53,515 nucleotides of DNA from positions 1 to 53,515 of the forward strand of contig JANYBC010000098.1 of NCBI GenBank assembly GCA_025360965.1, written 5' to 3'. A program made the translations under genes and the position numbers. Of the stretch, positions 2,118 to 15,330 are shown one piece after another. Position 1 is the stretch's first letter; each line of letters opens with the position of its first letter. Under the pieces are notes generated by a model that had not been told where the DNA came from, searched no databases, and saw only the letters and a program-made list of their open reading frames with translations. The stretch is from Anaeromyxobacter sp. (GTDB lineage Bacteria > Myxococcota > Myxococcia > Myxococcales > Anaeromyxobacteraceae).

Positions 2118-2275
2118 CGTCAAGTCCTACCGTGGAGGCGGGGGGACTTGGAAGCGGGGCTCGACCGTCCGTGCAGGTGGCCGCGGCTTCGGCCTCGCGA
2201 ACTCGTTGCCGCCGGCGGGCCGCCGCGCTTAGATGCAGCCCCTCGCGCCGAAGATGGCCGACCTGGAGGTCCACC

Positions 2276-4172
2276 GTGCTGGCACCCACCGCGCTCCTGC
2301 TGCTCGCTGCCGCCGCGTCCCCGGCGATCGGGCTCACCGTCGACCTGCGCGAGGCCCCGCGCCGGCGCTTCCACGCCACGCTGAGCATCCCCGCCTCTGC
2401 CGGACCGGCCACGCTCGTCTACCCAAAGTGGATCCCGGGTGAGCACGGGCCGACCGGCCCGCTCGCCGACCTGGCCGGCCTGCGCATCACCGCCAACGGC
2501 GCCCCGCTGGCCTGGGTCCGAGACAGCGAGGACCTCTTCGCGTTCAAGGTGGTGGTGCCGGCCGGGGCGACGCGGCTGGAGGTGGCGCTCGACGCCATCG
2601 AGCCGGCGCCGAGCACCGGCGGCTTCTCCGGCGGGGCCTCGGAGACCCCGCGGCTGGCGTTGCTCTCCTGGAACCACGTGCTGCTCTACCCGAAGGGCGC
2701 CGATCCCCACACGCTGCAGGTCAGCGCCGCGGTGACGCTGCCGGACGGCTGGTCGTTCGGCACCGCGCTCCCGGTGGCGCGGCGCGCCGGCGCCACCGTC
2801 ACGTTCGAGGCCGCCAGCCTGGAGACGCTCATCGACTCGCCGCTGCTGGCCGGCCGCTACCTCTCCACCACGGCGCTTGGTCCGGCCGAGGGGCCGCCGC
2901 ACCGGCTGGTGATCGCCGCCGACTCGCCCGAGGCGCTGGTGGTTCCGCCCGAGTTCAAGGTCCGGGCCGATCGGCTGGTGGCCGAGACCGGGGCGCTCTT
3001 CGGCGCCCGCCACTACCGCGGCTACACCTTCCTGCTCACGCTCTCCGACTTCGTCGCCTCCTTCGGCCTCGAGCACCACGAGTCGTCCGATGACCGGATG
3101 GGCGAGCGATCGCTGCTCGAACCGGCCACCCGGCCCCAGGTGGGCGGGCTCCTCTCGCACGAGTTCGTCCACTCCTGGAACGGCAAGCACCGCAGGCCGG
3201 CCGGCCTCGCCACCCGCGACTACCAGCAGGCCATGCACGGGTGACCTGCTCTGGATCTACGAGGGGCTGACCACCTACCTGGGGGGGGTGCTGGCGGCGC
3301 GCAGCGGCTTCCTTGGCGAGGGCGGCTACCGCGAGACCCTGGCGCAGGAGGCCGGGGCCATGACGGCGCACGCCGGACGCACCTGGCGGCCGCTGGGCGA
3401 CACCGCCACCGCCGCCTCGGTGCTCTATGGCGCCCGGCCCGACGGCAGCGCCTGGCGGCGCAGCGTCGACTACTACCCGGAGGGATCGCTGCTCTGGCTG
3501 GAGGCCGACGTGCTGATCAGGCAGCAGTCGAAGGGGTCCCGCTCGCTCGACGACTTCATCCGCGCCTTCTTCGGTGGCTCCAGCGGCCCACCCTCGGTCC
3601 GGCCGTACCAGCTCGACGACGTCCTCAAGGCGCTCGACGCCGTGGCCCCGAACGACTGGCGCAGCTTCTTCGCCGAGCGGGTCGAGCGGGTGCGGGCGGC
3701 GCCGCCGCTGGCCGGGATCGAGAAGGCCGGCTGGAGCTACGACTTCGCCCCGGAGCCGGGACCGATCGCCAAGGGCGGCGCGGTCGCGTCGGGCCTGACC
3801 AACCTCTCCGCCTCGCTCGGCCTCATGCTCTCCAAGGAGAACGTCATCCTCGACGTGGTGCCCGGCTCGCCGGCCGACCGCGCCGGGGTGCCGGCCAGCT
3901 CCAAGCTGCTCGGCGTCAACGGCCGGGCGCTCACCAAGGAGCGGCTCGAGCAGGCGCTGGTGGCCTCGGCCAGGGGGGTCCCGGTGGAACTGCTGCTCCT
4001 CGACGCCGACATCTTCCTCACCGCGAAGCTCGACTACCAGGGTGGCCCGCGCTACCCGGCGCTGAAGCGCGATCCCTCACGGCCAGATCTTCTCGAGGCC
4101 ATCGCCGCGCCGCGGGTGCCGCCGGCGGCCGATCCGGTCAAGGCGGCAGCGCCGGCCACCGCCGGGCCCTGA
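2276..4172 (+). pseudogene. M61 family glycyl aminopeptidase, split by a +1 frameshift near 3240
   Basis: Together the two frames encode a complete secreted M61 zinc aminopeptidase of about 630 residues, close to the family's usual length. Translation most likely starts at GTG 2276 (GGAGG about 6 nt upstream) with a signal peptide (ALLLLAAAASPA). The zinc motif HEFVHSWN begins at residue 295, followed by the conserved WNGKHRRPAGL. Frame 1 then stops at 3244 just after Gln-Gln-Ala-Met-His-Gly. The continuation Asp-Leu-Leu-Trp-Ile-Tyr-Glu-Gly-Leu-Thr, which carries the third zinc ligand Glu, is in the next frame. Removing one G from the GGG run at about 3239-3241 restores a perfect M61 sequence through a C-terminal PDZ domain (VVPGSPADRAGVPA). 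This is either a recent inactivating mutation or a sequencing error; nothing else in the gene is decayed. Confidence 0.88.
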
Positions 4173-6034: not shown

Positions 6035-7372
6035 TCACGCTTCGCCGGTCTCCCCTGCGGACATGCTCGCCAGCAGGGAGTAGAGCCGGCGCCGAGTCAC
6101 GCCAAGGAGCTTGGCGGCCTCGGTCTTGTTGCCGCCGGCGCGCTCCAGCGCGGCCTGGATCAACTCGGCCTCGAAGCCGTCGAGGCTGAAGCCTTCGCCG
6201 ACCAGCTCGGCGGCGTGACGACCGCGAGGGGTCGAGGCGCCGCTGGGGGTGAGGTGGCCCGGGGCGATCTCCGCCTCGCCCGCCAGGATGAGCGCCCGCT
6301 CCAGCGCGTTCTCGAGCTCGCGCACGTTGCCCGGCCAGGCGTGCCCGAGCAGCCGCTCGCGGGCGCCGGGGCCGAGCTTGGCCGGGGGCAAGCCCCGCGC
6401 CGCCAGGAACCGGTCGGCCAGCGGCAGCACGTCGTCCCGCCGCTCGCGCAGCGGCGGGACGTGGATGGCGAAGACGTTGAGCCGGTAGAAGAAGTCCTCC
6501 CGGAACGACCCGGCCCGGACCGCCTCGCTGAGATTTCGGTTGGTGGCCGAGATGATGCGGACGTCGACGCGGCTGGCCCCGGTGGCGCCGAGCGGCACGA
6601 AGGTGCGCTCCTGGAGGAAGCGCAGCAGCTTCACCTGCGTGGCCGCGGTGATCTCGCCGATCTCGTCGAGGAACAGGGTCCCGCCGTCGGCCACCGCCAG
6701 GTGGCCGGCCTTGCGCTGGGTGGCGCCGGTGAAGGCGCCCTTCTCGTAGCCGAACAGCTCCCCCTCGAGCAGGGTCTCGGGGAGCGCGGCGCAGTGGACT
6801 TCGAGGAGTGGCGCGCCGGCGCGCTTCCCCTGGTAGTGGATGTAGCGCGCCAGCTGGCTCTTGCCGGTACCGCTCTCGCCGAGCAGGAGCACGGTCGCGT
6901 CGGTGGCCGCCACCTGGCGCGCCGCCTCCAGGGCGGCCTTCATGGGCGCGCTCTCCGCCACCAGGTCCGGCGTCAGCCGCGCCAGCAGGCGCGCGCTCCT
7001 CGCCTCGGTGGAGCGCTGGTCCGCCAGCCGCTTCACCCGCAGCCGCAGCTCGTCCATGGCGAACGGCTTGATCAGGTAGTCCGCCGCGCCGGCCTTCATG
7101 GCCGCCACCGCGCTCTCCGCTGTGGCGTAGGCGGTCATGAGGATCACCTCGGGCGGGCGCGGCAGCGCCCGCGCCGCGGCCAGCACCGCCAGGCCGTCCA
7201 CCTCAGGCATTCGCAGGTCTGTGAGCACGACGTCCCACGTCCTGGCCGCCAGCTCGACCAGCGCCTGCCGGCCGCTCCCGACGCAGGCCACCTGGTGTGC
7301 GTCGAGCTCCAGCATCTCGGCGGTGAGCTTGCCGAGCTTTGGCTCGTCGTCGATCACCAGAACGCGTGACAT
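6035..7372 (-). CDS. NtrC-family sigma54-dependent response regulator
   Basis: A 445-residue cytosolic transcription activator with three domains. The receiver (residues 1-118) has Asp52 as phospho-acceptor in LTDLRMPE and Lys102. The AAA+ domain has Walker A GESGTGKS at 165-172 and the sigma54-contact loop GAFTGA at 212-217. A Fis-type helix-turn-helix sits at the C-terminus (NKTEAAKLLGVTRRRLYSLL). I start it at ATG 7372 because the longer frame upstream adds a non-receiver, Arg/Pro-rich stretch. It is the last gene of an operon with its kinase 10 nt upstream. The GAFTGA loop means it should act at sigma54 promoters, and such a promoter precedes this very operon at 11328-11342, implying autoregulation. 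Metal sensing (ZraR/CopR-like role) is inferred from neighbours. Confidence 0.95.
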   Translation of the reverse strand: MSRVLVIDDEPKLGKLTAEMLELDAHQVACVGSGRQALVELAARTWDVVLTDLRMPEVDGLAVLAAARALPRPPEVILMTAYATAESAVAAMKAGAADYLIKPFAMDELRLRVKRLADQRSTEARSARLLARLTPDLVAESAPMKAALEAARQVAATDATVLLLGESGTGKSQLARYIHYQGKRAGAPLLEVHCAALPETLLEGELFGYEKGAFTGATQRKAGHLAVADGGTLFLDEIGEITAATQVKLLRFLQERTFVPLGATGASRVDVRIISATNRNLSEAVRAGSFREDFFYRLNVFAIHVPPLRERRDDVLPLADRFLAARGLPPAKLGPGARERLLGHAWPGNVRELENALERALILAGEAEIAPGHLTPSGASTPRGRHAAELVGEGFSLDGFEAELIQAALERAGGNKTEAAKLLGVTRRRLYSLLASMSAGETGEA

Positions 7373-7382
7373 TGGTGGGATC

Positions 7383-8633
7383 CTAGCCCGGGGCGAGCGG
7401 CAACGTGAGCTCGAAGGCGGCGCCGGGACGGTCGCCCGGCAGGAGGCGGAGCGCGCCGCCGTGACGCTCGGCGATCCGCCGCGAGATGGCGAGGCCGAGC
7501 CCGGTCCCCTCGGCGCGGCCGGTCGCGAAGGGATCGAAGAGCCGCTGGCGCAGCGCCGGGTCCACCCCGGGGCCATCGTCGGCGATCTCGAGCCGGGCGC
7601 GCGGCCCGTCTGGCCGGCCCCGCACCTTGATGGACGTGGCCCCCGCCTGCGCGGCGTTCACCAGCAGGTTGGCCAGCACCTGGCGGAGCCGGCCGGCGTC
7701 GGCGTTGACCCGCAAGGCGGGGACCTCCAGGCTGACCTCGACCCCGGGGTGGGAGCGGGCCAGGGCGCGCGCCGCCTCGGCGGCCAGTTCCCCGAGGTCG
7801 ATCGGGGCGAGGGAGACTGCCGGCTCCCGGGCCAGGTCGAGGAAGTCCTCGGTCAGCCGACGCAGCCGCTCCACCTCGCCGAGGACGTCGGCCAGCGCCT
7901 CGCGGTCCTTGCCAGGGAGCCCCGCTCCGCTGCGGGCCTGGATCAGCTCGACCGCGCCGCGGATCACGCCGACCGGGTTGCGGATCTCGTGGGCCACCAT
8001 CGCCGCCATCCGCGAGAGTGCTTCCCCTCGCGATGCGCTCTCCGCGGCCACCTGCCGGCGCCCCTCGCTCCGGGCCCACTGCCTGGCCGCCGCCGCCAGC
8101 GCCACGGCCACCAGCGCCGAGAGCACCACGCCGACCCAGAGTGCCCGCTCCAGGTCGCGGCGGGTCGAGGAGAAGGCCTGGCCGGCCTCGAGAGCCAGCA
8201 CCGAGCGCACCTCGCCGCCCGGCCCGCGCACCGGGAAGTACCCGGTCGCGACCGGCTGGTCGCCCACGGCATAGGCAAAGGCGACCGAGGGGTGGCCGGC
8301 CAGCGCCTCGGCGGCTCGCCGCGCGTCGACGCGGAGCAGGTTGGCCTTCACCCCGGACGGGCCGGTGGCGTCGACCTGGATGTCGAGGGCGCTGGAGAGC
8401 ATGAAGGCCCCCTCCAGGCCGTTGGAGCGCATCAGCGCCGCCAGCCTGGCCTGGGTGGGAGGCGCGCCCGCCAGCAGCGCGGCGGCGGTCTCGCCCGCGC
8501 CCCGCAGCCGCTCCTCGAGAACCTGGTCCACGGCGCGCGAGGCCTGGTGGTGGAGATAGAGCGTCACCCCCAGCGATCCGGCCAGGCCGAGCAGCCCGGC
8601 CAGCAGCGGCGCCAGGGCACGGCGCACCGTCAC
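7383..8633 (-). CDS. Membrane sensor histidine kinase, partner of the NtrC-type regulator
   Basis: A 416-residue inner-membrane kinase. TM1 is at about 10-27, a periplasmic sensor region at about 30-163 and TM2 at about 165-184. The dimerisation/phospho-acceptor helix has His215 in MVAHEIRNPVG, and the HATPase domain carries the N box LVNAAQAG, DDGPGV and GTGLGLAISRR. Its GTG start overlaps the stop of the upstream gene by 4 nt (GTGA), and the response regulator begins 10 nt downstream, so the pair is co-expressed. The periplasmic region resembles no sensor fold I can name and has no obvious His/Cys metal cluster. The ligand is therefore unknown; copper, silver or zinc stress is inferred from the gene's position. 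Confidence 0.94.
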   Translation of the reverse strand: MTVRRALAPLLAGLLGLAGSLGVTLYLHHQASRAVDQVLEERLRGAGETAAALLAGAPPTQARLAALMRSNGLEGAFMLSSALDIQVDATGPSGVKANLLRVDARRAAEALAGHPSVAFAYAVGDQPVATGYFPVRGPGGEVRSVLALEAGQAFSSTRRDLERALWVGVVLSALVAVALAAAARQWARSEGRRQVAAESASRGEALSRMAAMVAHEIRNPVGVIRGAVELIQARSGAGLPGKDREALADVLGEVERLRRLTEDFLDLAREPAVSLAPIDLGELAAEAARALARSHPGVEVSLEVPALRVNADAGRLRQVLANLLVNAAQAGATSIKVRGRPDGPRARLEIADDGPGVDPALRQRLFDPFATGRAEGTGLGLAISRRIAERHGGALRLLPGDRPGAAFELTLPLAPG

Positions 8634-10069
8634 AGCCCCTTCTGCCAGGAGATGCCGATCATCGGGACCAGCTTGTCATACGCGAACGCAGGCGCGTTGG
8701 AGAGTGCCTTTCGCCCTTCCAGCGAGCCCCTGGCCGACCAGCCCGAGCCGAGGTCGTACTCAGCGAGCACTGCACCGTCGAGGTAGCTGTCGCTCCGCGT
8801 CACGCCGATGGACGAGTCGTTAGCATCGTAGGCCCGCCAGCTGACCCCGCCCAAGGCCCCGATCCAGACGTGAGCCGAGATGAGCAGCCGCAGATCCAGC
8901 CTCGGACCATGCTCGGTGTACGAGGTGATCCCCAGGTTTGCGGCGTCGCGGCTTGCGCCGTAGGCGATGCCCACCCATCCGCCCGTACCAACCGGCAGGG
9001 CGCTGCGAAGCTCGGCGTGATGGAGGACGCCGGAGAAGCCGTCCAGCGTGGCCGAGCGGTAGTCCTCGAGCTGAGCCGCGTAGCGTGCGCTCCAGGTCAA
9101 GCCGCCGGCGGTCAGCCACCCGGCGCCGGTGAGCCGGTTGGCCGACAGGTAGGGCGAGCCTCCGAAGGTGCTGTAGGCGTAGGCGTACTCGCCGAGGAGG
9201 CCGTTGCCTCCGCGCAGGAGCTGCCAGCCCGCCGCCGCCTCGACGCCTGCGGCGTCGTAGGTCCCGAGCTGAAGCTGCTGCCTCAGGAATCCCTCCCCTC
9301 GGACGTACGGTCCGCTCGGACCGGATGGGCGAAGGAGCGCCGAGGCTCCGAGCCCGTAGAGCCCGTCGCCGTGCATGGAGCCCCCGGTCATCCCTCCGCC
9401 GCTGCCGCTCGAGCCGGTGCCGCCGGCGGGAGCCAACGACACGTTGGAGTCGTAGCCAGCCTGGGCGACGAAGGTCAGCACCAGCCGGGCATCCTGGCGG
9501 GCCAGCCGCGACAGATCAGCCGCCAGGACGCCGAGCGTGGGGTTCGCCGATGCCTGGGCGAAGAGGGCCGACGCGCGCGGTGCCGCGCCGGCGCGCAAGG
9601 CGATGAGGCCGAGGTAGAATCGCGCCAAGTCCTGATGCTCCGGCCGCGCCTCCGCCAGCTTGAGCAGCGACTCGGCCGCGCCGTCGGCGCCGAGGTGGTA
9701 GTCGCAGATGCCCTCGAGCAGCGCCGCTGCGGGGTCTCCGTTCGACTGGCGTGCCAGCTTGAAGGAAGCAGCCGCGGCTTGCCAGTCGCGAGCGTCCATC
9801 TGGCGCAGTCCGGCCTGGAAGGGCTCGGCCTTGGTCCCCTCCTGGCCACAGAGTTCCCGGAGCGCCTTGCGCGAGGTCGCGTCCTTCGGATCGAGCGCTG
9901 CCGCGGCTCGGTAGGCGACCGCAGCGGTCTCGACGCCGCCGAGGGCCCGCTCGTCGTCCCCAGCCTTCCGGTAGAGGGCCGCCGACTCCGGATCGGGTGA
10001 GGGAGCCAGTGTCACCGGCGCACACGGGTCGGTGGCCGCCACCAGGAGGCCAAGCAGCGCCCCGATCAC
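8630..10069 (-). CDS. TPR protein with C-terminal outer-membrane beta-barrel (Slam-like architecture)
   Basis: A 479-residue exported protein with a short signal sequence, then TPR-like helical pairs over residues ~25-190 (YRKAGDDERALGG, AAVAYRAAAALDPKDATS, ARFYLGLIALRAG). The C-terminal ~270 residues alternate short amphipathic strands separated by Gly/Ser turns and end with a bulky hydrophobic strand (MIGISWQKGL), as in outer-membrane barrels. This TPR-plus-barrel order is that of Slam (DUF560) surface-lipoprotein translocators and some polysaccharide secretins; I cannot tell which. A Gly/Ser/Met-rich loop (GSGGGMTGGSMHGDG) sits between the domains. GTG 10069 and the stop at 8630 both overlap neighbours by 4 nt, so translation is coupled within the operon. 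One possibility is that it exports or anchors the Met/His-rich protein encoded first. Confidence 0.75.
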   Translation of the reverse strand: MIGALLGLLVAATDPCAPVTLAPSPDPESAALYRKAGDDERALGGVETAAVAYRAAAALDPKDATSRKALRELCGQEGTKAEPFQAGLRQMDARDWQAAAASFKLARQSNGDPAAALLEGICDYHLGADGAAESLLKLAEARPEHQDLARFYLGLIALRAGAAPRASALFAQASANPTLGVLAADLSRLARQDARLVLTFVAQAGYDSNVSLAPAGGTGSSGSGGGMTGGSMHGDGLYGLGASALLRPSGPSGPYVRGEGFLRQQLQLGTYDAAGVEAAAGWQLLRGGNGLLGEYAYAYSTFGGSPYLSANRLTGAGWLTAGGLTWSARYAAQLEDYRSATLDGFSGVLHHAELRSALPVGTGGWVGIAYGASRDAANLGITSYTEHGPRLDLRLLISAHVWIGALGGVSWRAYDANDSSIGVTRSDSYLDGAVLAEYDLGSGWSARGSLEGRKALSNAPAFAYDKLVPMIGISWQKGL

Positions 10070-10677
10070 GGCTTGGCTCCCTGGGTCGGCGCGACCTTGG
10101 CCGTTTCGACGCCGCGGACGGCGTCGGCGTGGCGGTAACGATCAGGGCGGCGCTCGGAGAGCAACCTGGCCTCGCGGCCATAGGCTGCCGACAGCACCGG
10201 GCGCTTCTCGTCGCGTGCGGCGCTGCTCTGATCCAGGTACCAGTCGATGGCCGCCGTGGTCGGCTCACCCTTCAATGCGTCGGCGATGTCGGAGCGCATC
10301 TTGCCCACCTGCGCACCGATGCGCGGCCCGGCGCGATCGGCGATGGTCGCCAGCAGGCTGTCGGCCGCGACGTAGAGGCGGGCATCGAAGGCCGCGACCG
10401 ACCGGTAGTAGTCGACGAGGGCGTCCGGCCCCGGGTCCTCCAACCCACCGAAGGCCTCGATCGCCTCTTCCGGCCGGCCGAGCTTCACCAGCGCGACCGC
10501 GGCGTAGCGTGCGGCATCCGGCGCACCGAGGCGCTGTGCAACGCGAAACTCGACGAGTGCCTCGGCGTACCGCGCCTCACGGAACTCCCGGGCGCCGGCG
10601 AGCAGGTGCTCGTCGGCGCCGGGACCGCCGGCCGAGAGGGTGAGACCGAGGAGGAGGGCCAAGGCGGGGATGGTCAA
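10066..10677 (-). CDS. Secreted TPR-type protein
   Basis: A 203-residue protein with a signal peptide (ALALLLGLTLSAGG) followed by helical TPR-like repeats (AREFREARYAEALVEFRVAQ; AVALVKLGRPEEAIEAFGGL). It starts with TTG at 10677, with GGAG about 7 nt upstream; no ATG or GTG fits the signal peptide. It overlaps the TPR/barrel gene by 4 nt and begins 14 nt after the Met/His-rich gene. It probably acts in the periplasm as a partner of the TPR/barrel protein. I recognise no specific family. Confidence 0.7.
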   Translation of the reverse strand: MTIPALALLLGLTLSAGGPGADEHLLAGAREFREARYAEALVEFRVAQRLGAPDAARYAAVALVKLGRPEEAIEAFGGLEDPGPDALVDYYRSVAAFDARLYVAADSLLATIADRAGPRIGAQVGKMRSDIADALKGEPTTAAIDWYLDQSSAARDEKRPVLSAAYGREARLLSERRPDRYRHADAVRGVETAKVAPTQGAKP

Positions 10678-10691
10678 TGGGGGCTCCGCGA

Positions 10692-11279
10692 CTAGTGCTT
10701 GCCGCCGGTCGGCATGCCGGTTGTGGGAGGCGTGGTGGTGGGCGTCCCGGTGGTGGTCCCGGTGCCGGGAGTCATTCCGCCCGTCGTGCCGGTCCCGGTG
10801 CCGCCGGTGGTCCCGGCTGGCATCATGCCGCCAGTGCCGCCCGGCATTGTCCCGCCCGGCATGGTGCCGCCCGGGCCGCTCCCCATCATCCCGCCGTGCA
10901 TCTCCTTCATCTTCTCCTTGTTGGCCGCGTCGTGCATGTCACCGTGGCCCCCCATCGCCGCGCCGCTGGTGGCGGCGTTCATGCCGGCCCTGTTGGCGGC
11001 ATCGGCGTGGGTCGCCGTGGCGTCCTTGGTGCCCTGGTGCATCCACTTGTGCTGCGCCCCCTGGCCGGCCGCGGCCGCGGTGCCGTGCATCTGGTCGTGG
11101 CCCATGCCGGGCTTCATGGCCTGATCGGGCATCGCCGCCGGCCTGGCCGGCACGGTCGCCTGATCGTGCATCGCGTCGTGCATCGCCTTGTGGGCCGCGG
11201 CGCCATTCTCCTGTGCCGAGGCGCCGCCTGCCACGAGGACCCCCGCCACCGCCACCGCCTGGAACCAGCTCTTCTTCAT
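10692..11279 (-). CDS. Met/His-rich secreted protein, first gene of the sigma54 operon
   Basis: A 195-residue exported protein with a signal peptide (MKKSWFQAVAVAGVLVAGGASA). The mature part has about twenty His and many Met in HxxM and MH pairs (MHDAMHD, GMGHDQMHG, KEMHGGMM), the composition of periplasmic copper/silver buffers. The C-terminal 60 residues are low-complexity Gly-Thr-Met-Pro repeats. I chose the ATG at 11279 because AAGGAGAAGCAT precedes it; the longer frame upstream is Arg-rich shadow sequence. It is the promoter-proximal gene of the operon that ends with the kinase and regulator, much as zraP relates to zraSR in enterobacteria, although it shows no obvious resemblance to ZraP. 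Metal binding is inferred from composition. Confidence 0.8.
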   Translation of the reverse strand: MKKSWFQAVAVAGVLVAGGASAQENGAAAHKAMHDAMHDQATVPARPAAMPDQAMKPGMGHDQMHGTAAAAGQGAQHKWMHQGTKDATATHADAANRAGMNAATSGAAMGGHGDMHDAANKEKMKEMHGGMMGSGPGGTMPGGTMPGGTGGMMPAGTTGGTGTGTTGGMTPGTGTTTGTPTTTPPTTGMPTGGKH

Positions 11280-11327
11280 ATGCTTCTCCTTGAGAGTCCG
11301 CGCCATGCGGCTCGGAGGGCACTCATC

Positions 11328-11342
11328 GCAAGGCCCGTGCCG
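11328..11342 (-). promoter_or_regulatory. Sigma54 (-24/-12) promoter of the TPR/two-component operon
   Basis: On the minus strand the sequence reads CGGCACGGGCCTTGC. This is GG-N10-GC spacing with near-consensus -24 (GGCACG) and -12 (TTGC) elements. Transcription would start about 12 nt downstream, roughly 35 nt before the ATG at 11279. The operon encodes a GAFTGA-type activator, which makes the match meaningful. Confidence 0.8.
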
Positions 11343-11381: not shown

Positions 11382-11421
11382 ACGGTACCGCCTGGTACGG
11401 CGATGTGTCCCGAACGGTACG
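11382..11421. promoter_or_regulatory. Candidate activator-binding (enhancer) repeats
   Basis: Three GGTAC boxes lie about 40-80 bp upstream of the minus-strand -24 element. The first two form the palindrome GTACC-N4-GGTAC (385-398) and the third (416-420) is within CGAACGGTACGAG. The distance suits an NtrC-type enhancer. It is also upstream of the divergent plus-strand sigma54 site at 11569, so it could serve both. Confidence 0.4.
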
Positions 11422-12328: not shown

Positions 12329-12424
12329 TAGGTGCACGCTGAGTAGTCAGCTCACATGCCATTTCCGACACGCTGGTCGGGAGCCCGAAAGCTCTCGACT
12401 GAACACCACTCGAAGGAGCCACAC

Positions 12425-12946
12425 ATGACCCATGTACTTCTCGTCGGCGCTACGGCGCTCGCTCTCCTCTCCGGTTGCGCCCACTCCAGCCAGCCCGCAG
12501 CCGCCGCACCGATGGACGGCGACCGTGGCGACATGAAGGCGTTGTGTCCCATGGGCGTGCCGGGCACCCAGGTCTCGGCCGTCGACGAGATCAATGGATC
12601 GACCTTGACGTTCACCGCCCGCGGCCAGGTCGCCGAGCTCCAGCGCCGCGTCCATGCCATGGTGAAGATGCACAACCAGCATCACGCTGGCGGCGACACG
12701 CACGAAGGCATGCCCAAGGGCGGGATGATGGGTGGCGACCATATGATGGGCGGCGACCAGAAGATGGGCGGCATGATGATGCCACCCTCCCACGCGACCG
12801 TGTTCGACCTCGATAACGGCGCCAGCATCAAGCTGATGCCGACCAACGAGGCGGACCTCCAGAAGCTGCAGTCCGCGGTTCGCATGCACGCGCAGCGGAT
12901 GCAGCAGAACGGCTGCGAGATGATGACCGGGATGCACCACGGCTGA
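12425..12946 (+). CDS. Met/His-rich lipoprotein, probable copper binding
   Basis: A 173-residue protein starting at ATG 12425 behind AAGGAG. The signal peptide ends in a lipobox (ALLSGC), so it should be lipid-anchored. The mature protein has a Cys-Pro-Met (residue ~41), a region suited to a small beta/alpha domain (TFTARGQVAELQRRVHAMVKMHNQHH), a dense Met/His block (MMGGDHMMGGDQKMGGMMM) and a second similar helix (LQKLQSAVRMHAQRMQQNGCEMM). The two helices look like an internal duplication. It is the first of four collinear genes ending with the outer-membrane protein at 16827. Copper or silver buffering is inferred from composition and neighbours. Confidence 0.75.
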   Translation: MTHVLLVGATALALLSGCAHSSQPAAAAPMDGDRGDMKALCPMGVPGTQVSAVDEINGSTLTFTARGQVAELQRRVHAMVKMHNQHHAGGDTHEGMPKGGMMGGDHMMGGDQKMGGMMMPPSHATVFDLDNGASIKLMPTNEADLQKLQSAVRMHAQRMQQNGCEMMTGMHHG

Positions 12947-13188: not shown

Positions 13189-15330
13189 ATGGCTTCCACC
13201 GAGAGCATCCACGAGGGCCACCAAGGTCACGCGGCGCCTGGCGCACAACCCGCCATGTCGGCGGACATGGCGCACGAGATGGGCCACGGCGGCAAGGACC
13301 TGCCCGCCATGGTCCGGGACATGCGGAACCGCTTCTTGATCTGCCTGGTCTTCACCGTGCCGATCTTCGTCTACGCCCCCATGGGAGGCTTCTTCGAGCC
13401 CCCTGCTCCACCGTTCGGGCTCGAGCTCAACCTCTGGCTCTTCTTCTTCGCCAGCGCCGCCATCCTCTACCCGAGCTGGCCGTTCTTCGTCTCCGCGTGG
13501 AGACAGCTCAAGAAGGGCACCCTGGGCATGGCGGCGCTGATCGTGTTGAGCGTCGGCACCGGGTATCTCTTCAGCGTCGCCACCACCTTCCTCTTCAAGG
13601 AGGGCGGACAGTTCTTCGAGGCCGCCGCCGTCCTGTTGGTCTTCATCCTCCTCGGCCACTGGCTGGAGATGCGTGCCCGGGCCGGTGCCTCATCCGCCAT
13701 CCAGGCGCTCATGAAGCTCACGCCGGCGAAGGCCTCCGTGATCCGCAATGGCGCCGAGATCGAGATTCCGACGGCCGAGGTCGTGGCAGGCGAGATCGTG
13801 GTGATCCGGCCAGGCGGCAAGATCCCGGTCGATGGCACGGTGGAGACCGGTGAGTCGCTGGTCGACGAATCCATGCTCACCGGTGAGTCGATGCCGGTGC
13901 CGAAGAAGCCAGGGGCCACCGTCATCGGCGCGACCATCAACAAGAGCGGCAGCTTCCGCTTCAAGGCGACCAAGGTCGGGGCCGACTCGGCGCTCGCCCA
14001 GATTGTCAAGCTGGTGCAGGAGGCCCAGAGCTCCAAGGCTCCGGCGCAGCTCCTGGCGGACAAGGCGGCGCAGTGGCTGGTGATCGTCGCCATTTTAGTT
14101 GGCCTCGCGACCTTTGGGGTCTGGTTCTGGGTGATGGGACAGCCGCTGCTCTTCGCGGTCACCATGACCATCACGGTCTTCGTGATCGCCTGCCCGGACG
14201 CGCTGGGACTCGCGACGCCCATGGCGGTCATGGTGAGCACCGACCTGGGCGCGACCAACGGAATCCTCTTCAAGAACGCCTCGGCGTTGGAAGAGGCGAC
14301 CAAGCTCGACGTCATCGTCTTCGACAAGACCGGCACGCTCACCGTCGGCCAGCCTGAGGTGGTGGAGCTGGTGACGGCGGACGGGGTCACCGAGGATGTG
14401 CTTCTGGCTGCCGCCGCCGCCGTGGAGCAAGGGTCCCAGCATCCGCTGGCCCAGGCCATCCTCCGCCGGGCCGCGAACCTCACCGCTCCCGCGCCCACTG
14501 GATTCCAGAGCATCGACGGCATGGGCGCCAGCGCCGAGACCGGGGGCGGAACGGTGTTTCTCGGCAACCGGGCGCTCATGGAGGCTCAGAAGCTCGACCT
14601 CGGCCGGCTGGAGGTCGAGGCCAAGCGCCTCCAGGGAGAGGGACGCACCGTCGTCCACGTGGCCCAGGCCGCCCGCGTCATCGGGCTCATCGCCATCGCC
14701 GACGCCATCCGGCCGAGCTCGAAGGCGGCGGTGTCCAGGCTGCGCGAGCGCAACATCCAGGTGGTGATGTTGACCGGCGACAACGCGGCCACGGCCAGGC
14801 GGATCGCCGCAGATCTCGGCATCGACAGCGTCCTGGCCGAGGTGCTTCCGGCCCAGAAGGCCGAGAAGGTGAAGGAACTCCAGGCAACCGGCAAGAAGGT
14901 CGGCATGGTGGGCGATGGTGTGAACGACGCGCCAGCGCTGACCCAGGCCGACGTGGGCTTTGCCATCGGCGCCGGGACCGACGTCGCCATGGAGAGCGCC
15001 GACGTGGTGTTGATGAAGAGCGATCCCTTCGACATCGTCGCCGCCATCGAGCTGTCGCGCGCCACCCTGCGGAAGATGCACCAGAACCTCTGGTGGGCGG
15101 TGGGCTACAACGTGGTCGCCTTCCCGCTCGCCGCGGGTGTCCTCTTCCCCTTCGTGCTCAGCCCCGAGGTGGCGGCGCTGTCCATGTCCGGCAGCACGCT
15201 GGTGGTGGCGATCAATGCGCTGCTGCTGAAGCGCACCAGGCTGGAGGGCATCCGCCAGCCTGGAAAGGGCGCCGAACCCACGGCAGCTGGTGGGCCCATC
15301 ACCCCGGACCACGCCAGCGCCGTTGCGTGA
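13189..15330 (+). CDS. P1B-type heavy-metal (copper/silver class) translocating ATPase
   Basis: A 713-residue inner-membrane efflux pump. The cytosolic N-terminus is His/Met-rich ([20 protein letters not shown]) with no CxxC ferredoxin-like domain. TM helices, the actuator loop (LTGES at ~230), phosphorylation motif DKTGT with Asp379, the ATP-binding domain with a His-Pro pair (GSQHPLAQA), and [12 protein letters not shown] hinge motifs follow in order. The membrane metal motif is Cys335-Pro336-Asp337 ([12 protein letters not shown]) instead of the common CPC or CPH. TM7 has YNVVAFPLA and TM8 MSGST, the latter like CopB-type pumps. Overall it is CopB-like by its His-rich tail but with a variant ion-binding site. 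It sits in the copper block and is probably driven by the upstream sigma54-like promoter. Confidence 0.95.

Follow-up and report, generated by a model that had tools for sequence, protein, structure and literature searches.

The window analysed here – a 53,515 nt stretch of DNA from an Anaeromyxobacter species – encodes a 479 aa protein with TPRs and a putative 14-strand outer-membrane barrel (BAR; 8630..10069, minus strand), and raises the question of what such a protein does in the envelope and with which partners. A sequence-only reading of the locus had likened BAR to the Slam translocators and proposed the secreted protein encoded by the first gene of the operon as its possible cargo. Known Slam/T11SS cargo proteins carry a C-terminal 8-strand barrel domain (TbpBBD-like) and are often lipoproteins (PMC8406197), and marine cluster 3 T11SS proteins only rarely co-occur with cargo of this C-terminal-barrel type (PMC12282271).

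The BAR reading frame is exactly as first annotated, with a GTG start, and shares 4 nt with each neighbour, at the end of the TPR gene upstream and at the beginning of the kinase gene downstream, as genes of an operon do. The TPR region spans approximately residues 27-192 and the barrel approximately residues 195-479 (285 aa), with a conserved G[YW]DSN motif at 205-209. Searched alone against Pfam, the window protein gives weak TPR matches (TPR_11, E=0.0028); TPR_16 is found in 16 of the 18 family members scanned (best 3.2e-10), so that the repeats are clear family-wide. In a 28-sequence alignment, the beta-type hydrophobic moment of residues 195-479 lies 5.2 SD above column shuffles and the alpha moment 1.9 SD below them, the TPR region shows the reverse pattern, and the alternation of hydrophobic and polar residues in 195-479 resembles that of transmembrane beta strands. 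The strand count of about 14 was read from the moment peaks combined with AF2 secondary structure. The TPR_16 matches and the beta moment thus support the arrangement first noticed, N-terminal TPRs followed by a putative barrel of about 14 strands.

Structure prediction, which had been put forward as a check, supports one half of BAR and leaves the other at low confidence. A single-sequence AlphaFold run gave no usable model (pLDDT 35). A second AF2 run, using a three-sequence alignment of the window protein and the orthologs at L021 and L022 (the latter from Anaeromyxobacter soli), modelled residues 27-192 as helices with block pLDDT up to 88, and the barrel half as antiparallel strands with pLDDT of approximately 22-58. 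A Foldseek search with this low-confidence model returned no PDB match at E<=0.001, and a PDB profile search recovered only generic TPR proteins, with no solved-structure match to the barrel. The C-terminal half is strongly suggested to be an outer-membrane barrel: it is well supported by sequence, and the structural evidence falls short of proof because the AF2 barrel is of low confidence and Foldseek gave no match.

Gene prediction around the BAR orthologs shows a conserved gene order, SEC-TPR-BAR-HK-RR, in which BAR is the third gene. In the window, all on the minus strand, TPR (10066..10677) encodes a small secreted TPR protein of 203 aa, HK (7383..8633) a membrane histidine kinase with an extracytoplasmic domain of about 135 residues, and RR (6035..7372) an NtrC-type response regulator with a receiver, a sigma54-activation domain containing GAFTGA, and a Fis-type HTH (PF00072, PF00158 and PF02954). 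The HK extracytoplasmic domain (residues ~28-165) is well conserved, yet neither the domain nor its consensus has a Pfam match. HK and RR adjoin in most copies, with genes overlapping or nearly touching; in one genus, whose genomes are very large, any RR that was identified is situated 3.5-5 kb further along. The neighbours of BAR – a secreted Met/His-rich protein, a secreted TPR protein and a sensor kinase – are therefore as originally described, but the kinase, taken at the time for a departure from the expected layout, turns out to be the norm for the BAR family.

The cassette occurs in four families of the order, the window's own and three others, and within the window's family most genomes have a BAR ortholog. 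A phylum-wide profile search of 195 genomes gave matches in 37, a few of which are weak and TPR-only. Because orthologs recur in the same order across many genomes, the arrangement is beyond chance, and because the flanking genes vary among genomes, the five genes are the unit. We found no relatives in viral contigs and no description of the cassette in open-licence papers, and with respect to that literature it is a conserved, previously undescribed five-gene myxobacterial unit. Three other genes of the window may be recorded here. Two adjoin the cassette on the plus strand: a Met/His/Gly-rich putative lipoprotein (12356-12946; GGMMGGDHMMGGDQKMGGMMM), with a Met-rich stretch similar to the SEC tail in the window, and a P-type metal ATPase (13189-15330), a relative of which flanks the second cassette of genome G003 (L043). 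On the plus strand at 2132-4172, a peptidase-like gene whose C-terminal part is PDZ-like is apparently split between two frames near 3240; it thus looks interrupted, or there is an assembly error at that point.

The proposed cargo, SEC (10692..11279, minus strand), is a small secreted protein of low complexity; it has 195 aa, although translation may begin earlier, at 11306. Among 38 BAR loci, four are cut by contig ends and 34 have a usable upstream flank; SEC lies upstream of BAR in all 34, upholding the choice of the first operon gene as partner. The proteins share a layout of signal peptide, a conserved segment of the form AxxAMxEALxxQAxxPxxPxLP, and a variable low-complexity body; in the window the segment is AAHKAMHDAMHDQATVPARPAAMP, followed by a Met/Gly/His/Thr-rich tail. 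The emphasis first placed on a Met/His-rich cargo does not extend to the family, since Met content reaches 10-13% in some members of a single family only and is 1-3% in most others, where SEC is rich in Ala, Arg and Glu. On these sequences Met/His-richness is a lineage-specific feature and the conserved part is the short segment after the signal peptide; the idea of SEC as a Met/His-rich copper cargo was dropped for this reason. The window SEC has no Pfam match. By eye, as the signal peptides were also judged, SEC has no lipobox-type lipidation cysteine, and most SECs lack cysteine altogether; neither a sign in the sequence of a C-terminal 8-stranded barrel domain of the Slam/T11SS cargo type nor a recognised outer-membrane secretion signal was seen. 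SEC paralogs in genomes G002 and G010 have bodies made of short repeats. At L112 3083-3441, L117 887-1507 and L118 2-568, SEC paralogs with short protein repeats (GYAASQGKNA; DRLQDGTGDQLQT; RTRAMERTQQQVQGAEQAGDQL) follow the same kind of promoter, on contigs that end within or just past these genes. The passengers are divergent – Met-Gly rich, Ala/Lys-rich or tandemly repeated – with the N-terminal segment retained. Gene adjacency by itself would suit SEC equally well as cargo, as a periplasmic co-factor or as a signalling ligand.

BAR resembles the Slam/T11SS (DUF560/SlipAM) proteins in its N-terminal periplasmic TPRs, its putative barrel of about 14 strands and near-equal length (285 aa versus 288 SlipAM positions), and its adjoining cargo candidate, and to this extent the Slam-like layout first reported stands. 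Membership in the family does not: the proposed DUF560 profile search gave no SlipAM (PF04575) match among 18 BAR members at E<=1, among 8 other divergent members and paralogs at E<=10, or with the family consensus, while PF04575 searches of whole genomes matched nowhere, controls included, and are therefore uninformative. Because SlipAM matches are absent and SEC lacks the lipidation cysteine and C-terminal barrel domain of known cargo, we describe BAR as Slam-like in design and not as a Slam; the cassette differs further in that it comes with a fixed two-component pair and encodes a second, separate protein with TPRs. BAR could still be a true, very divergent Slam translocator, in keeping with the common layout and a weak TPR_Slam (PF24575) match in 2 of the 18 members (best E 0.065), but the missing SlipAM match, the features of SEC and a barrel resembling no solved structure by sequence make this improbable. 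Two further readings are unlikely. A PgaA/BcsC-type porin for polysaccharide export (PMC9384988) would share the TPR and outer-membrane barrel layout, and three members gave weak, TPR-driven NCBIfam matches to BcsC and two to PgaA; this reading is extremely doubtful, as BAR has a shorter TPR array and about 14 strands compared with 16 in PgaA barrels (PMC8406197), and no polysaccharide synthase gene is present in the cassette or recurs in its neighbourhoods, whose genes were read from predicted sequences and are only partly annotated. It is very unlikely, too, that BAR is an MtrB-like porin of an electron-transfer or metal-handling complex with a Met/His-rich SEC as copper binder: the barrel consensus matches MtrB_PioB (E=0.011) and the window cassette adjoins the metal ATPase, but no multihaem cytochrome is found in the cassettes, the neighbourhoods vary between genomes, and the Met/His tail is confined to one lineage. 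Elsewhere in the phylum, in another family, a different TPR protein (L078 5501-7084) passes the TPR_Slam (PF24575) cut-off at 35.9 versus 35.2 bits and likewise has no SlipAM match.

The region upstream of SEC has a sigma54-type -24/-12 promoter (11327..11342, minus strand; CGGCACGGGCCTTGCG) located 47 bp upstream of the start codon of SEC, and an upstream enhancer of four GTAC half-sites at 0/10/22/32 with one mismatch (11385..11420), 43 bp from the -24 element. Across the family the promoter follows the pattern GGCAY-N6-TGCT (GGCACGGGCCTTGCG in the window) and the enhancer is a tandem dyad, GTAC-N6-GTAC-N8-GTAC-N6-GTAC, with half-site spacing of 10/12/10, situated 41-45 bp above the promoter. 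Promoter and enhancer together, with at most 3 of 16 mismatches and a 41-45 bp gap, are present in 25 of the 34 SEC upstream regions; the enhancer alone occurs at this stringency in 3 of 3400 shuffled sequences, and two loci that seem to be exceptions carry a perfect enhancer one gene farther up. The SEC promoter is the only place in the window's genome where the enhancer site occurs. Searching 195 genomes with a strict pattern identified 30 sites in 23 genomes, compared with approximately 7 matches for the reversed pattern. Wherever the gene downstream of a site was examined, it proved to be of SEC type, some being paralogs that stand alone; the one exception is G035:C12, where no SEC gene was called in the part of the contig retrieved. 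Judged by its sequence, SEC thus has the -24/-12 promoter and upstream dyad characteristic of an NtrC-type target, and RR is the probable binder of the GTAC dyads.

With a looser pattern, the enhancer also precedes a second operon in G008 and G013 (L114 1809-2926, L115 3833-4950), encoding a secreted low-complexity protein of 97 aa and a TPR-less barrel protein of 267 aa; the first strand of this barrel contains GYDANLLIAPG, the same G-Y-D-x-N motif as in BAR. In two genomes, a ResB-like cytochrome c biogenesis gene (L110 776-2341, L105) is preceded by a sigma54-like promoter and a single GTAC/GGAC dyad. The regulon count leaves out dyad-like matches located ahead of a ResB-type gene in G006 and G017 and of a lipoprotein gene in G022.

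Reduced copies of the cassette indicate which genes belong together most closely, and provide the means of weighing export against sensing. In the paralogous copies L041 and L042, TPR is fused to BAR in a single protein behind SEC, suggesting that TPR and BAR work jointly, and L070 is a SEC and BAR pair alone. None of the three has an adjacent HK or RR and all retain a sigma54-type promoter upstream, which makes SEC and BAR the most stable pair. Genome G035, reported to be 100% complete, contains two SEC genes but a single BAR, matching the expectation of a single channel that serves several cargos. The main rival to export is a receptor or sensing role, in which SEC is a periplasmic or surface ligand or regulator and TPR-BAR an outer-membrane receptor signalling to HK, with no export. 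The close linkage of HK and RR, the extracytoplasmic domain of HK, the apparent control by RR of the cassette promoter and the rapid evolution of SEC, as of a ligand, are all consistent with such a circuit. We nonetheless consider it rather unlikely, and favour export, because SEC and BAR persist without the adjacent two-component genes and additional SEC genes, among them lone paralogs under the same enhancer, occur elsewhere.

We therefore prefer a reading in which the cassette is devoted to exporting SEC through the outer membrane, or to assembling it there, and regulates itself through its own two-component pair of the NtrC type; we regard the chances of this interpretation as evenly balanced, and infer its export step from the conserved adjacency. 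BAR would be the outer-membrane channel of this envelope unit. Largely unfolded, SEC would cross the inner membrane via Sec. In the periplasm its conserved N-terminal segment would be bound by the TPR surfaces of TPR and BAR, and BAR would deliver the protein to the cell surface or medium. The periplasmic domain of HK may detect an envelope or extracellular cue, leading to phosphorylation of RR, which on the GTAC dyads would activate sigma54 transcription of SEC and the entire cassette.

By analogy, BAR may work like a TPR- or helix-plus-barrel exporter of the Slam or FapF type, although we assign it to neither family. We know of no comparable two-component pair with FapF, the Pseudomonas amyloid exporter. 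FapF is a barrel with a helical periplasmic part that exports a co-encoded unfolded protein (PMC5557850), as BAR is a putative barrel with predicted periplasmic helices and a co-encoded candidate unfolded substrate; the helical part of FapF is a coiled coil (PMC6173795) instead of TPRs, and no sequence match was seen. On the regulatory side, the myxobacterial NtrC-type system NmpRSTU has an NtrC-like regulator that controls its own locus, as RR is proposed to do, but its kinases use protoglobin or receiver sensing domains and no TPR-barrel or SEC genes are described with it (PMC6211767).

More broadly, and more tentatively, with confidence somewhat below even, we propose a hitherto undescribed myxobacterial system for outer-membrane protein export in which the N-terminal segment, and not a C-terminal domain, directs fast-diversifying disordered or repeat passengers through a TPR-barrel channel, and in which all cargo genes are linked to the export machinery through a single enhancer code that its own NtrC-type regulator reads. 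If correct, this would extend TPR-barrel export beyond DUF560, with a cargo that is easy to test, and its promoter and enhancer signature would locate further cargo genes by sequence alone. It would also provide a function for a conserved, unannotated gene set in a phylum noted for its elaborate surface and social behaviour.
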